64,000 nt of DNA from Acidobacteriota bacterium (lineage in GTDB: Bacteria > Actinomycetota > Actinomycetes > Actinomycetales > Microbacteriaceae): the NCBI GenBank assembly GCA_019352055.1, contig JABBOB010000002.1:1-64000 (forward strand), written 5' to 3'. Under the pieces are notes generated by a model. The model did not search any database. It was not told the DNA's origin and saw only the letters and a list, made by a program, of their open reading frames with translations. Below, piece by piece: positions 3,727 to 59,392 of this stretch. Position numbers and translations under genes: made by a program. Each line of letters opens with the position of its first letter. The first letter of the stretch is position 1.

Positions 3727-4212
3727 TCAGTCGCCCGGCCAAGCGCTCAGCGGCAGCAGCACGGCCCGGCGCATGCCGCCGAGGAGCAGCAGGGGCGACA
3801 CGTAGACCCAGCCGGCCGCGGTCCGGATCCGCGCGCCGAGGTGCAGCACCCCCGCGGCGTGGGTGGCGCCGGTCGCGAGGTGCCCGATCACCTCGCCGCG
3901 CCGCACCGCTTCGCCCGCATGCACGATCGGATCGACCGGCTCGACGCTCGAGCGGACCCCACCGTGGTCGATGGCCACGACACCGCGGTCGACCACGGTC
4001 CCGGCGAAGGCGACCGTCCCGTCGGCCACAGCGTGGACGTCGCTGCCGACGGCAGCGCCCACATCGAGGCCCCGATGGCCCGCCGCGTACTCGGTCGCGG
4101 GCGCCTCGAATCCCCGGGTCACGGCGTGGGAGGCGGCCGGCCAGCTCCAGGAGGGCGCCGGTGCAGCCGCGGCCAGCGCTGCGGCGAGGACGAAGCTGCC
4201 GACGCGGAGCAT
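3727..4212 (-). CDS. M23-family peptidase-like protein with signal peptide
   Basis: 'GHRGLDVGAAVGSDVHAVADGTVAFAGTVVDRGVVAIDHGGVRSSVEPVDP..G..VRRGEVIGHLATG' M23 fold pattern. Confidence 0.83.
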   Translation of the reverse strand: MLRVGSFVLAAALAAAAPAPSWSWPAASHAVTRGFEAPATEYAAGHRGLDVGAAVGSDVHAVADGTVAFAGTVVDRGVVAIDHGGVRSSVEPVDPIVHAGEAVRRGEVIGHLATGATHAAGVLHLGARIRTAAGWVYVSPLLLLGGMRRAVLLPLSAWPGD

Positions 4213-4295: not shown

Positions 4296-4400
4296 GAGCA
4301 CGACAGCAGGAAGAATCCACTCGGGCAGGAACAATCGGTCGAACGCTTCCTGCCGAACGTGCTGCTTCCTGCTCACGCGCTCCGTTCTTCCTGCTGATGT
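4296..4400. repeat. Copy A of a dispersed intergenic element with phased AGCAGGA/TCCTGCT motifs
   Basis: GCAGGA at 4306 and 4325, TCCTGC at 4348, 4367 and 4389; gapless alignment to 25941-26045 (offset 21645), 74/105 identities by hand count. Confidence 0.8.
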
Positions 4401-4429
4401 ACTCGGTCGGAACCCGGGGGAGCGGCTGG

Positions 4430-4627: not shown

Positions 4628-5719
4628 GTGGCCGTCGTCACCATCCGCCAGCTGCTCGACAGCGGCGTCCACTTCGGGCACCAGACGAGGCGCTGGAACC
4701 CGAAGGTCAAGCGCTTCATCCTGACCGAGCGCTCGGGCATCCACATCATCGACCTGCAGCAGTCGCTCGCCTACATCGACAAGGCGTACGACTTCGTCAA
4801 GGAGACCGTCGCCCGCGGCGGCACCGTGCTGTTCGTCGGCACGAAGAAGCAGGCCCAGGAGGCCATCGCCGAGCAGGCGATGCGCGTCGGCCAGCCCTAC
4901 GTCAACCAGCGCTGGCTCGGCGGGCTGCTCACCAACTTCCAGACGGTGCACAAGCGTCTGAACCGCCTCAAGGAGCTCGACCTCGTCGACTTCGACGACA
5001 CGTCGAAGGGTTACACCAAGAAGGAGCTCCTCATCCAGCGTCGCGAGCGCGACAAGCTGGAGAAGACCCTGGGCGGTATCCGCAACCTGTCCAAGACCCC
5101 GAGCGCGATCTGGGTCATCGACAGCAAGCGCGAGCACCTCGCGGTCGACGAGGCGAAGAAGCTGGGCATCCCGGTGATCGGCATCCTCGACACGAACGCG
5201 GATCCGGACGAGCTCGCCTATCCGATCCCGGGCAACGACGACGCGATCCGCTCCGTCGCGCTGCTCACGAGGATCATCGCCGACGCGGCGGCCGAGGGCC
5301 TGATCCAGCGCCACCAGGGCACCAGCGAGGCCGACGCCGAGCCGCTCGCCGCCTGGGAGCAGGAGCTCCTGCAGGCGACGGAGAACCCGGAGGCGCTCGA
5401 CCTGCAGGTCGAGCAGGTCGACGACCGCGTCTCGGGTCTTACCGAGGACAGCCAGGACCGCGTCGACACGGTCGTCGCCGACCAGGTCGACGCGACCGCG
5501 GTCGTGGCGGGCACCGAGCCGGTCGAGGAGAACGACGCGGACGCCCAGGCCGACGCCGACCTCGCGGCCCAGGCCGTGGACGGTCTCGTCCCCGAGCACG
5601 CGCCGGAGACCGAGGAGCAGGTGGAGGCCGAGGAGCTCGCGAAGGCGACCCCGGCGCAGCGCCGCCCGAAGAAGATCACCGACCCGGCAGCGACCGAGGA
5701 CCCCGAGCCCTCCGCCTGA
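4628..5719 (+). CDS. rpsB: 30S ribosomal protein S2 with acidic C-terminal extension
   Basis: '[46 protein letters not shown]'; GTG start with AGGAG upstream. Confidence 0.97.
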
Positions 5720-23318: not shown

Positions 23319-25901
23319 GTGAAAGCCATCCGCCGCTTCACCGTCCGAACCGTCCTGCCGACGTCCCTGTCGGCCCTGGACGAGCTCGCCGCGAACCTCC
23401 GCTGGTCGTGGCACGAGCCGACGAGGCAGCTGTTCGAGGAGATCGACCCGGAGATCTGGGCGTCGGGCTCGTCCGATCCCGTCGCGCTGCTCGGCGCCGT
23501 CAGCCCCGTGCGCATCGAGGCGCTCGCCGCGGACGACGCCTTCGTGGCCCGGGCGAACGCGCTGCGCGACGACCTCACCACCTACTGCAGCGAGCCGCGC
23601 TGGTACCAGACGCTCGCCGAGGCGCCCGCGCACATCGCGTACTTCTCGCCGGAGTTCGGCATCGCGGCGGCACTTCCGCAGTACTCGGGAGGCCTCGGCA
23701 TCCTGGCCGGCGACCATCTGAAGAGCGCCTCCGACCTGGGGCTGCCGCTCACCGGCATCGGCCTCTTCTATCGCGCCGGCTACTTCAAGCAGTCGATCTC
23801 CGCCGACGGCTGGCAGCAGGAGGCGTACCCGGTCCTCGACCCGGACGGCCTGCCGCTGACGCTCACCAGGCACGCGGACGGCGCTCCCGCGCTCGTCTCC
23901 CTCGCCCTGCCGTTCGGGCGCACGCTGCACGCGCGGATCTGGCAGGTCGCCGTCGGTCGCGTGACGCTGCTGCTGCTCGATACGGACATCCCCGAGAACG
24001 AGGACGCCCTCCGCGACGTCACCGACCGCCTGTACGGCGGCGGCGGCGAGCATCGGCTCCTGCAGGAGATCCTGCTCGGCATCGGCGGCGTCCGGGCGCT
24101 GCGCATCTGGACCGAGCTGACCGGCCGGCCGGAGGCCGAGGTCTTCCACACCAACGAGGGCCACGCCGGCTTCCAGGGCCTCGAGCGGATCTCGACGCTC
24201 ATCCACGGCGGCCTGACCTTCGCCGAGGCGCTGCAGGTGGTGCGCGCCGGCACGGTCTTCACGACCCACACCCCGGTCCCGGCGGGGATCGACCGGTTCG
24301 ACCGTGGGCTGATGCAGCAGTACTTCTCCGGCGACCTGCTGCCGGGCGTGGACGTGTGGGAGGTGCTCGCACTCGGCGGCGAGAACTACCCGGGCGGCTC
24401 CGGCGACGTGTTCAACATGGCCGTGATGGGGCTGCGCCTCGGTCAGCACGCCAACGGCGTCTCGCAGCTGCACGGCGAGGTCAGCCGGGGCATGTTCAAC
24501 GGCCTCTGGCCCGGGTTCGACGCCTCCGACGTGCCGATCACCTCGGTCACGAACGGGGTGCACGCGCCGACGTGGACGGACCCGCTGCTGCTCGCGCTCT
24601 CGGAGGAGAAGCTCGGCACCTCGGACACGACCGCCGCCGACTGGGCGGGCAAGGGCGTCAGCGACGCCGACCTGTGGGCGGTGCGGAACCGCATGCGCGC
24701 CAACCTCGTCGCGGACGCCCGCCGGCGCGTGACCGCGGCGTGGCACGAGGAGAACCCCGGCGCCTCCGCACCGGCCTGGTTCCAGGACCTGCTGGACCCG
24801 GACGTCCTCACCATCGGGTTCGCCCGCCGCGTGCCGACCTACAAGCGCCTCACGCTCATGCTCGAGGACGAGGCGCGGCTCACCGCGCTGCTGACCCACA
24901 AGAAGCGGCCGATCCAGATCGTGATCGCGGGCAAGTCGCACCCGGCCGACGACGAGGGCAAGCGGCTCATCCAGAAGCTGGTCCGGTTCACGCAGGACCC
25001 CGAGCTGCGTCGCCGCATCGTGTTCCTCCCCAACTACGACATCGCGATGGCGCAGGTGCTGTACCCCGGCACGGACATCTGGCTGAACAACCCGCTGCGC
25101 CCCTTGGAGGCGTGCGGCACGTCGGGGATGAAGGCGGCCCTGAACGGCGTGCTGAACCTGTCGATCCTCGACGGCTGGTGGAACGAGTACTACGACGGCG
25201 AGGACGGCTGGGCGATCCCTTCGGCGGACGCCGCAGGCGACGCCGCTGAACGCGACAAGCTCGAGGCGGAGAGCCTGTACGACCTGATCGAGAACCAGAT
25301 CGCGCCGCGCTTCTACCGGCGCGACGCCGCCGGCGTCCCGACCAGGTGGATGGCGAACGTGCGGCACACGCTGGCGACGCTCTCGCCCGAGCTGTCGGCC
25401 GACCGCATGGTCCGCGAGTACGTGCAGCGCCTCTACATGCCGGCGGCGGAGGCGGCGGAGGCGATCAGCGCCGGCGACTTCGCGGGAGGCCGCGAGCTCG
25501 CCGCCTGGAAGGGCGAGATCTCCTCGGCCTGGAACGAGGTGTCGGTCGTGCACGTCGAGTCCGGCGGCCTCGCTCCCGTCCCGCAGGTCGGCGATCGGCT
25601 GCACGTGCGCGCGCAGGTGCAGCTCGGCTCGCTGAAGCCGGAGGACGTCGCCGTGGAGGTCGTCTACGGCACCTCCCGCGAGGGCGACGACCTGGTCAAC
25701 ACGGCCACGGTCGAGCTCGAGCCGCTCGCGGAGGACTCGACGGCGTCCACCGGGCCGATCGTGCTCGACGGCTCGCGCACCTTCGCGGGCACGGTGACGC
25801 TGACCCGGCCCGGGTCGTTCGGCTACAACGTCCGCGTCGTGCCGAAGAACGTGTACCTCGCGAACCCGGCGGAGATGGGCCTGGTCGCGGTCGCGCACTG
25901 A
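23319..25901 (+). CDS. glgP: Alpha-glucan phosphorylase
   Basis: 'AYFSPEFGIAAALPQYSGGLGILAGDHLKSASDLGLPLTGIGLFYRAGYFKQ', 'NPLRPLEACGTSGMKAALNGVLNLSILDGWW'. Confidence 0.95.
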   Translation: MKAIRRFTVRTVLPTSLSALDELAANLRWSWHEPTRQLFEEIDPEIWASGSSDPVALLGAVSPVRIEALAADDAFVARANALRDDLTTYCSEPRWYQTLAEAPAHIAYFSPEFGIAAALPQYSGGLGILAGDHLKSASDLGLPLTGIGLFYRAGYFKQSISADGWQQEAYPVLDPDGLPLTLTRHADGAPALVSLALPFGRTLHARIWQVAVGRVTLLLLDTDIPENEDALRDVTDRLYGGGGEHRLLQEILLGIGGVRALRIWTELTGRPEAEVFHTNEGHAGFQGLERISTLIHGGLTFAEALQVVRAGTVFTTHTPVPAGIDRFDRGLMQQYFSGDLLPGVDVWEVLALGGENYPGGSGDVFNMAVMGLRLGQHANGVSQLHGEVSRGMFNGLWPGFDASDVPITSVTNGVHAPTWTDPLLLALSEEKLGTSDTTAADWAGKGVSDADLWAVRNRMRANLVADARRRVTAAWHEENPGASAPAWFQDLLDPDVLTIGFARRVPTYKRLTLMLEDEARLTALLTHKKRPIQIVIAGKSHPADDEGKRLIQKLVRFTQDPELRRRIVFLPNYDIAMAQVLYPGTDIWLNNPLRPLEACGTSGMKAALNGVLNLSILDGWWNEYYDGEDGWAIPSADAAGDAAERDKLEAESLYDLIENQIAPRFYRRDAAGVPTRWMANVRHTLATLSPELSADRMVREYVQRLYMPAAEAAEAISAGDFAGGRELAAWKGEISSAWNEVSVVHVESGGLAPVPQVGDRLHVRAQVQLGSLKPEDVAVEVVYGTSREGDDLVNTATVELEPLAEDSTASTGPIVLDGSRTFAGTVTLTRPGSFGYNVRVVPKNVYLANPAEMGLVAVAH

Positions 25902-25940: not shown

Positions 25941-26045
25941 GAGCACGAGAGCAGGAAGCATCCGCTTCAGCAGGATGAATCGGGCGATTCGATCCTGCTG
26001 AAGCGCATTCCTCCTGCTTTCGCGCGCGGGAATTCCTGCTGTGGT
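25941..26045. repeat. Copy B of the phased AGCAGGA/TCCTGCT element, containing a long hairpin
   Basis: GCAGGA at 25951 and 25970, TCCTGC at 25993, 26012, 26034 (plus 26048); GCTTCAGCAGGAT-GAATCG-gg-CGATTC-g-ATCCTGCTGAAGC. Confidence 0.82.
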
Positions 26046-26061
26046 GCTCCTGCGCCTGGGC

Positions 26062-28083
26062 TCAGGTGCCGGAGTAGAGGAGCAGGGTCGGGCCGTCGAT
26101 GTGGATGTGCTCGCCCGGCAGCGAGTGGAGGCCGGAGACCGAGTCGTCCGCGCTCGTCCACAGCAGCTCGTAGTCCCTGATCCCCGGATGCTCGGGCAGG
26201 GCGGCGCGCATCGTCGTCACATCGCCGTGCACCACGAGCAGGGTCGTGTCGCCGGGCGCCTCCGCCAGGTGCTGGAGGGTCCGGTTCTCCGGCGCGGTCC
26301 AGGCCGCCTCGTGCATGGGCAGCCCGTCGGCGGTGAACCAGTGCATGGCGTGTTCGCTCGTCTCGTCCGCGAACCGCGTCGGACGCAGCGCCGGGTGCTC
26401 TCGTCGGATGCGGATCAGCCGCCGCACCACGTCCTGGAGCTCCTCCTGCCAGTCGGCGAGGTTCCAGTTGATCCAGGTGAGCGGGGCGTCCTGGCAGTAG
26501 GCGTTGTTGTTGCCCCGCTGCGTGCGGCCGAGCTCGTCGCCCGCGAGCAGCATCGGCACACCGGCGGAGAGCAGCAGGGTGCCGAGCAGGTTCCGCATCG
26601 CCCGGCGCCGGTCGGCGAGCACGCGTTCGACCCGCGTCGGCCCTTCGACGCCGAAGTTGAAGGACCGGTTGTTGTCCGTGCCGTCGCGGTTCGACTCGCC
26701 GTTGCCGAGGTTGTGCTTCGCGTTGTACGAGGTGAGATCGGTGAGCGTGAACCCGTCGTGGGCGGTGATGAAGTTGACGCTGGCGAGTGGACCTCGCTCG
26801 GGGGAGAAGTGCCATGCCGAGCCGGACAGCTCGTTCGCCAGCGCGCCGATCCCGGTCCGCGCGAGCCCGCCGTTGCGGGTCACGACCGTGTCGGTGAGCC
26901 AGAAGTCCCGCACGGTGTCGCGGTACCGGTCGTTCCACTCCGACCAGCCGGCGGGGAAGCCGCCCGTCTGCCAGCCGCCGAGGCCGACGTCCCACGGCTC
27001 GGCGATGAGCTTGACGTCGGCGAGCCGCGGGTCGGCGAGCAGCTCCTGGATCAGGGGCGCGTCGGGCGTGTAGGTGACGTGCTCGTCGCGCCCGAGCGTG
27101 ACCGCGAGGTCGAAGCGGAAGCCGTCGATCTGCACCTCCTCGGCCCAGTAGCGCACCGAGTCGTGGATGAGGCGGCGCACCTGCTCGTGGGAGCAGTCGA
27201 GGCTGTTGCCGCAGCCCGTCGTGTCGATGTACCGCCCCTCGTCCTGCCGGTAGTAGGTGCTGTTGTCGATGCCGCGGAAGCACTGCACGGGGCCGGACGG
27301 CCCCTCCTCCGCGGTGTGGTTGTACACGACGTCGAGCCACACCTCGATGCCGGCGGCGTGCAGGTGCTTCACCATCCCCTTGAACTCGTCGAGCACCTGC
27401 TGCGGGCCCGCCGACTGCGCGGTGAGGGAGGCGTACTGGGCGTGCGGGGCGAAGAAGCCGACGGTGTTGTAGCCCCAGTAGTTCACGAGGCCCTGCTTCA
27501 TCAGGCGCCGCTCGCTCGCGGACTGGTGCACGGGCAGCAGCTCGATCGCCGTGACGCCGAGGTCCTTCAGGTAGCGGACGGTCGACTCGTGCGCGACGCC
27601 CGCGTAGGTGCCGCGGAGCGCGCGCGGCACGGATCGCAGCTGCCTCGTCAGCCCCTTCGTGTGCGCCTCGTAGACGACGCTCTCCGCGAGCGGCGTGCTG
27701 GGCTTGCGCACGTCCCCCCAGTCGAACGCGTCCCGGACGACGACGCTGCGCCACGAGTCCTGGTCGATCCGCAGGATCCCGCGGGCGTAGGGGTCGAGCA
27801 GCGGGCGGGAGCGGTCGAAGGCGTGCCGCGGGCCGTCCGGGCCGCCGACCTTGACGGCGTACCGCCGACCCGGGGTGAGCAGGGCCGACCGGCCGCTCCA
27901 GATCCCGTCGTCGCCGCGTTTCATCCGCACGGTCCGTTCCACCCAGGAGGGGTCGCGTTCGGAGAGGAGGCAGAGCTCCATGCTCGTCGCGGTCTCGCTC
28001 GCGACGCGCAGCGTGCCGCCGTCCGGGTCCACTCGGACCCCCAGGTCGCGGAACCGGTCACTCGCGAGGGGCTCGGCCTGCAC
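26062..28083 (-). CDS. glgX: Glycogen debranching enzyme GlgX
   Basis: 'VVYEAHTKGLTRQLRSVPRALRGTYAGVAH', 'DGFRFDLAVTLGRD', 'NFITAHDGFTLTDLTSYNAKHNLGNGE'. Confidence 0.95.
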   Translation of the reverse strand: MQAEPLASDRFRDLGVRVDPDGGTLRVASETATSMELCLLSERDPSWVERTVRMKRGDDGIWSGRSALLTPGRRYAVKVGGPDGPRHAFDRSRPLLDPYARGILRIDQDSWRSVVVRDAFDWGDVRKPSTPLAESVVYEAHTKGLTRQLRSVPRALRGTYAGVAHESTVRYLKDLGVTAIELLPVHQSASERRLMKQGLVNYWGYNTVGFFAPHAQYASLTAQSAGPQQVLDEFKGMVKHLHAAGIEVWLDVVYNHTAEEGPSGPVQCFRGIDNSTYYRQDEGRYIDTTGCGNSLDCSHEQVRRLIHDSVRYWAEEVQIDGFRFDLAVTLGRDEHVTYTPDAPLIQELLADPRLADVKLIAEPWDVGLGGWQTGGFPAGWSEWNDRYRDTVRDFWLTDTVVTRNGGLARTGIGALANELSGSAWHFSPERGPLASVNFITAHDGFTLTDLTSYNAKHNLGNGESNRDGTDNNRSFNFGVEGPTRVERVLADRRRAMRNLLGTLLLSAGVPMLLAGDELGRTQRGNNNAYCQDAPLTWINWNLADWQEELQDVVRRLIRIRREHPALRPTRFADETSEHAMHWFTADGLPMHEAAWTAPENRTLQHLAEAPGDTTLLVVHGDVTTMRAALPEHPGIRDYELLWTSADDSVSGLHSLPGEHIHIDGPTLLLYSGT

Positions 28084-59332: not shown

Positions 59333-59392
59333 GGTGCATTTCGAAGGGGTTTCTGTCGGGCCGTCCCGACAGAAACCCCTTCGAAATGCACC
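59333..59392. repeat. Perfect 28-bp inverted repeat with 4-nt loop
   Basis: GGTGCATTTCGAAGGGGTTTCTGTCGGG-ccgt-CCCGACAGAAACCCCTTCGAAATGCACC, 3 nt beyond the treZ stop. Confidence 0.95.

Follow-up and report, generated by a model that had tools for sequence, protein, structure and literature searches.

The element studied here lies at positions 25941-26049 of a 64,000-nucleotide stretch of a Microbacteriaceae genome (contig JABBOB010000002.1; hereafter the window), and consists of five short sites arranged around a dyad in the gap between two convergent genes. The genome that holds the window (G000) is Amnibacterium-type, 2.98 Mb in 124 contigs. With a probability of roughly 70%, we consider the element to be one of the dispersed copies, without a gene, of a repeat that has its master locus in G000 at an AbiEi/Vsr-like gene on contig C35, in a system that resembles the repetitive extragenic palindromic (REP) elements and their REP-associated tyrosine transposases (RAYTs) but is built on an unrelated nuclease. 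This reading is based on the observed array family, its geometry and dialects, its association with genes, the matching of paralogues with dialects, the gain and loss of whole units, and placement at gene 3′ ends.

Geometry and dialects of the array family

The window holds two copies of the array, with the following features.

25941..26049, no strand assigned: array copy B, five sites, in the convergent gap between genes 23319-25901 (+) and 26062-28083 (-)
25951..25956, + strand: copy B site F1, GCAGGA(A), found by pattern search
25970..25975, + strand: copy B site F2, GCAGGA(T), found by pattern search
25993..25998, - strand: copy B site R3 (the + strand reads TCCTGC), found by pattern search
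26012..26017, - strand: copy B site R4 (TCCTGC, start 26012)
26034..26039, - strand: copy B site R5, an optional outer unit (TCCTGC, start 26034)
4296..4404, no strand assigned: array copy A, five sites (4306, 4325, 4348, 4367, 4389), in the divergent gap between genes 3727-4212 (-) and 4628-5719 (+)

Copy B is flanked by two sugar-metabolism genes and ends in the outer boxes GAGCAC (25941-25946) and GTGCTC (26044-26049). An earlier sequence-only reading of the window had aligned the two copies without gaps and counted 74 identities by hand. The ungapped alignment of 4296-4400 with 25941-26045 gave exactly 74/105, whereas random 105-mer pairs from the window shared 32 positions on average and 55 at most, and the start-to-start spacings of 19, 23, 19 and 22 were exact in both copies. 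Both copies belong to a GCAGGAA array family of about 35 members, since the genome-wide search with the proposed pattern gave 35 occurrences in G000 and the reversed-pattern control gave 0. The proposal was to be dropped if there were no more copies or if the matches lay in coding sequence, and the search result was the opposite. The five sites described earlier are one real form, carried by most arrays; some arrays have four, and the full element is a palindrome of six symmetric sites (F F F / R R R) with spacings 22-19-23-19-22. The pooled half-element consensus was GAGCACGACAGCAGGAAGnATCCrCTTCAGCAGGAAG, with GAGC outermost.

When the core was relaxed from GCAGGA to GCAGG and then CAGG, the number of G000 arrays rose from 35 to 55 and 61. 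Relaxed-core arrays were present in 30 of 300 Microbacteriaceae genomes, while the control gave 0 except in one genome. Among the matches listed, the GCAGGA core was almost confined to Microbacteriaceae (Amnibacterium, Naasia, Microbacterium, Plantibacter and Leucobacter). The exception among them was an array on a contig labelled as a Solirubrobacteraceae metagenome-assembled genome (MAG; L174), whose dialect resembles that of an Amnibacterium MAG with the same sample-series name prefix; the contig is possibly mis-binned.

The bases flanking the core were mostly shared by all sites of one array (GCAGGAA, GCAGGAC, GCAGGC, TCAGGC, ACAGGAGATCGCACG and others) and differed between species. In G160, which has no CAGG arrays, there were 11 arrays of GAGCGCGGTGTGTTG with near-identical geometry. 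Across the subfamilies as a whole, the spacing was 18, 19 or 20 bp; a search for a TTCCGC dialect gave one match. Array geometry is more conserved than site sequence, and the latter is a species- and family-specific dialect. Between copies, conserved columns were 94% identical and free linker positions 33% (26% expected at random). The search pattern set the inner sites and left the outer sites free, and these outer sites were intact in all testable G000 copies. Pairwise identity among G000 copies had a mean of 74% and was at most 89%, so a recently moving miniature inverted-repeat transposable element (MITE) was rejected. A phage or plasmid origin was also rejected, with one edge match in 2.9 million viral contigs, as was a ter- or ori-restricted distribution, as contig positions in A. 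kyonggiense and A. setariae look spread by inspection.

The sequence-only reading had further described the dyad as covarying, and this did not survive comparison of the arms. Two arms taken from one copy were no more similar than arms taken from two copies (p=0.83 for the centre, 0.87 for the linker and 0.75 for the outer part), and chimeras folded as well as native G000 elements (-53.5 vs -53.4 kcal/mol). In G000, the largest set, 32/60 permutations were at least as stable as the native arms. Four small sets were mixed overall: the A. setariae set leaned to pairing (4/60 permutations as stable), one MAG set leaned against it (58/60), and two were neutral. Rfam gave 0 matches within the window. 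With no arm covariation and chimeras folding like native arrays, the array is not a hairpin or RNA element. Thus, among the three options offered earlier, structured RNA was rejected, while the phased protein-binding array and the REP/MITE-like unit each partly hold, because the arrays have the look of protein-recognition arrays and their dispersal, 3′-end placement and gene association resemble those of REP units.

Genes between paired arrays

Array pairs about 1 kb apart recurred across genera, and the gene between them was mostly of the same kind, encoding about 280-315 residues. This partner gene surfaced only through such pairs; when all neighbouring proteins were clustered, solo arrays had no shared DNA-binding neighbour. 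The master locus of the window family is as follows.

G000 C35:35968-36792: GCAGGAA master-locus gene, between two copies of the GCAGGAA array

The N-terminus of the partner is like the AbiEi winged helix: the Pfam family AbiEi_4 matched the G160 protein with E=4e-7 and was weak or absent in others, and PADLOC AbiEi models matched. The C-terminus is DUF559/MTES_1575, with DUF559 (PF04480) above cut-off in 4/7 proteins and a weak or no match in the remaining 3/7. This domain matched the Vsr-like structure 3HRL with E=3e-6 and 3R3P with E=0.23. Judged from sequence, the partner is probably a winged helix joined to a Vsr-like nuclease domain of PD-(D/E)XK type, with predicted nuclease activity. 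A profile built from eight partner proteins matched in 32/32 Microbacteriaceae genomes, with 1-17 matches per genome and several in nearly all. At one locus (L265, G001 C1:183000-192000), two CAGGAC arrays 1.1 kb apart enclosed small open reading frames and no recognisable nuclease, possibly a decayed or replaced unit.

The association was then expressed in numbers. A periodic palindromic array (18-20-bp period) was found on both flanks (450 bp) of 23/48 partner genes and 0/264 controls (Fisher p=8e-22), the latter being genes of comparable length taken from six of the genomes that supplied the partner genes. In a motif-free comparison of left and right flanks, 45/52 partner genes beat the best of 267 controls and 49/52 beat the 95th percentile. 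Protein sequence alone identified most of the 52, non-CAGG dialects included. The sample is not entirely blind, because eight tested proteins also built the profile and some were first found through their arrays. The gene-between-arrays layout was present in several genera with unrelated motifs. The flank-match set included an Actinomyces gene (L350, Actinomyces oris plasmid NZ_CP116225.1). This AbiEi/Vsr-like homologue from outside Microbacteriaceae has flanking direct repeats of about 70 bp, about 95% identical, with no 19-bp geometry. At Tsukamurella loci the array scan found none, and flank matching was positive in 1/3 genes.

Within a genome, each paralogue went with its own dialect and its own set of dispersed copies. 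In G000, GCAGGAA arrays belonged to the C35 paralogue (L284) and GCAGGC arrays to the C100 paralogue (L313), and each of the two paralogues was flanked left and right by its own dialect. Likewise, in G299 GCAGGACTTTCTGC went with L318 and GAGCGCACC with L319, the further paralogues L297, L321 and L322 carried three further repeats, and in G160 GAGCGCGGTGTGTTG went with L293. The rule was repeated for the GCAGGC paralogue of G005 and for G259 (GCAGGT), G114 (ACAGGAGATCGCACG) and G160 (GAGCGC). At one locus shared by G000 and G003, the same gene had switched dialect together with its arrays. Most simply, the winged-helix nuclease would recognise its own array, which would explain why dialect and gene go together. 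The nuclease paralogue L297 (G299 C11) has one in-frame stop and three arrays on each side with 20-bp spacing, which suggests local amplification.

A second kind of repeat in the window could be assigned in the same way.

59334..59391, no strand assigned: near-perfect 58-bp intergenic palindrome GTGCATTTCGAAGGGGTTTCTG...CAGAAACCCCTTCGAAATGCAC, matching the private repeat that flanks L315

From this match, the palindrome is apparently a solo copy of the repeat of L315 (G000 C118:18144), a third AbiEi/Vsr-like paralogue of this genome. Another such paralogue (L316) is located on the window's contig at C66:67701-68552, 3.7 kb past the window end, and is flanked by TTTGTAGGACG palindromes.

Genome positions, gain and loss of arrays

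The 31 classified G000 copies comprised 14 convergent, 15 tandem and 2 divergent, one of the last being copy A, with 0 inside genes; tandem-gap copies were typically near the stop codon of the upstream gene. In the named genomes, 37 copies were convergent, 34 tandem and 9 divergent, and one was within a called gene. Gene boundaries are approximate, because the genes were called with a small home-made caller. The arrays show a REP-like trait, that is, dispersed extragenic copies beside gene 3′ ends and depleted in divergent gaps.

Seven loci of G000 and G001 hold an array in the same gap, with the fifth site, where present, on the same side. The loci shared by G000 and G003 include that of copy B, at which two arrays are present in A. 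setariae, both of its own dialect (GCAGGAC). Other orthologous gaps had no array; some had 10-29 bp between the genes, and two held an ordinary hairpin. Since such empty gaps lack only the array, each gain or loss involves a whole unit of roughly 100-130 bp at a gene 3′ end, and turnover between congeners was substantial. The array downstream of a trxA-like gene (L093 near 4085; L194; L210) was nearly identical in three Amnibacterium-type species. Its GCAGGAC dialect and longer centre (N20) persist even where every other array has changed; it may have an additional function.

At an rlmB-like locus, the array-gene-array unit was kept in G000, G002 and G003, and A. kyonggiense (G001) had a half-site relic only. 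No listed G001 paralogue lies between GCAGGAA arrays. Arrays missing a site made up 4/18 in G001 vs 0/49 in G000 and G003 together (p=0.004). Coming from one lineage, this result does no more than suggest that arrays start to decay once their cognate gene has gone. In the G002 unit (L137 / G002 C35:14293-14850), the middle part of the nuclease gene is deleted, and both flanking arrays are intact.

Proposed mechanism, rival explanations and known systems

If the favoured reading is right, the winged helix would read each CAGG-type site, and four to six protomers would assemble on one DNA face around the dyad. The nuclease domain would nick or cut at or near arrays or target gaps, and repair would then copy the array (about 100-130 bp) into new 3′-end gaps; a comparable role is attributed to RAYTs in the spread of REPs. 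Because the nuclease would go on recognising its sites, these would stay intact and all copies would track the enzyme's changing specificity. We infer the DNA binding, cleavage, mobilisation and cause of site conservation in this scheme, and the spread to 3′ ends is suggested by copy number, empty sites and the REP/RAYT analogy. On a wider scale, the evidence tips slightly towards an undescribed class of Actinomycetota elements, in which several AbiEi/Vsr-like nuclease genes per genome are each flanked by, and co-evolve with, private multi-site palindromic arrays; the nuclease would recognise these arrays and spread them to gene 3′ ends, with specificity constantly re-invented and geometry fixed. 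The open-access literature searched gave no description of an association between DUF559/MTES_1575-AbiEi genes and repeat arrays, and no role for DUF559/MTES_1575 proteins.

Several observations weigh against the favoured reading. The linkers of dispersed G000 copies have diverged nearly to saturation, which makes dispersal in that genome old. Many G001 arrays are intact with no cognate gene found there, and the gene loss in G001 is itself deduced from one locus and the paralogues listed. In the flank comparison, 7/52 partner genes stayed at or below the control, and the single-sequence structure model was poor, with a predicted local distance difference test score (pLDDT) of 49. Arrays may have entered the loci shared by G000 and G003 independently, with certain gaps preferred, and a host function may be what preserves the sites. 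In this last case the arrays would be chromosomal or regulatory sites of the host (nucleoid-protein, insulator or roadblock-terminator), and the nuclease would be domesticated as their DNA-binding protein or use them as safe harbours. Drifting linkers beside conserved sites, the orthologous G000 and G001 positions that agree in the side of the fifth site, the presence of dyad arrays in 45% of the classified G000 convergent-gene gaps, and the near-identical trxA-side array of three species all suit such a role. We nevertheless regard it as unlikely, as it has to meet several unrelated dialects per genome, each with its own nuclease paralogue, together with substantial turnover between congeners and arrays that seem to begin decaying where the cognate gene is lost.

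Bidirectional transcription terminators, or hairpins in 3′ untranslated RNA, would explain why the palindromic, strongly folding arrays are close to stop codons and why two array-less orthologous gaps hold an ordinary hairpin. However, native arms pair no better than cross-copy arms in the largest set, the arms do not covary, the stem has no compensatory change, other array-less orthologous gaps have no hairpin, and direct repeats at a fixed 19 bp within an arm are needless for a hairpin. This explanation is very improbable, although termination is possible as a side effect of the arrays. We give just as little credence to the idea that the gene belongs to a type IV toxin-antitoxin or defence system and represses itself through its AbiEi domain, with arrays as operators and the dispersed copies as decoys or a small regulon. 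The AbiEi-like N-terminus points in this direction, and AbiEi antitoxins are reported to bind operator inverted repeats, several in M. tuberculosis (PMC7319586). Against it, the second array comes after the stop codon, copies stand by the dozen at gene 3′ ends but rarely upstream of a gene, and no AbiEii (DUF1814) gene was annotated next to the homologue at the four loci with annotated homologues.

The association with arrays points to a specific, testable job for DUF559/MTES_1575 proteins, namely recognising, and perhaps spreading, a private repeat. If true, it would represent a RAYT-independent origin of bacterial extragenic repeats and would account for abundant lineage-specific palindromes. 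The matched dialects of protein and DNA site form a natural series for the study of how DNA specificity evolves, and predictions are immediate because each gene labels its own target sequence.

Among known systems, AbiEi antitoxins share the N-terminal winged helix with the partner, but here it is fused to a nuclease and the arrays are dispersed over the genome. The C-terminal domain is distantly similar to Vsr-like/EDxHD homing endonucleases (I-Bth0305I, 3R3P); unlike these, the partner gene is free-standing between two arrays, no intron or intein was seen, and dozens of copies carry no gene. Empty sites were observed for arrays but for no unit that bears the gene. MITEs and transposon ends with multiple binding sites (Tn7, Mu, IS21) have paired subterminal inverted sites at a spacing of about two turns. 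The arrays have similar inverted pairs at about two turns, but their linkers are near random with the sites intact and their dialect changes in concert; no DDE transposase was seen beside arrays. The functionally closest known system is REP/RAYT (REPtrons, TIRtrons). REPs adjoin 3′ ends in convergent and unidirectional gaps (PMC3733652), and the arrays are likewise dispersed extragenic palindromes next to 3′ ends with species-specific sequences, with a master gene flanked by repeat copies and several repeat families per genome, each with its own master gene. Membership in REP/RAYT fails because Y1/HUH (PF01797) transposases were absent (0/16 genomes; controls positive 5/14) and the repeats are not constrained hairpins. 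They are multi-site arrays of about 100 bp with no single-strand hairpin constraint, end in GAGCAC in G000, and lack a GTAG/CGTC-tagged short hairpin with a conserved stem, and their enzyme joins a Vsr-like nuclease to an AbiEi winged helix. These nuclease-linked repeat families are apparently an undescribed counterpart of bacterial REP elements.
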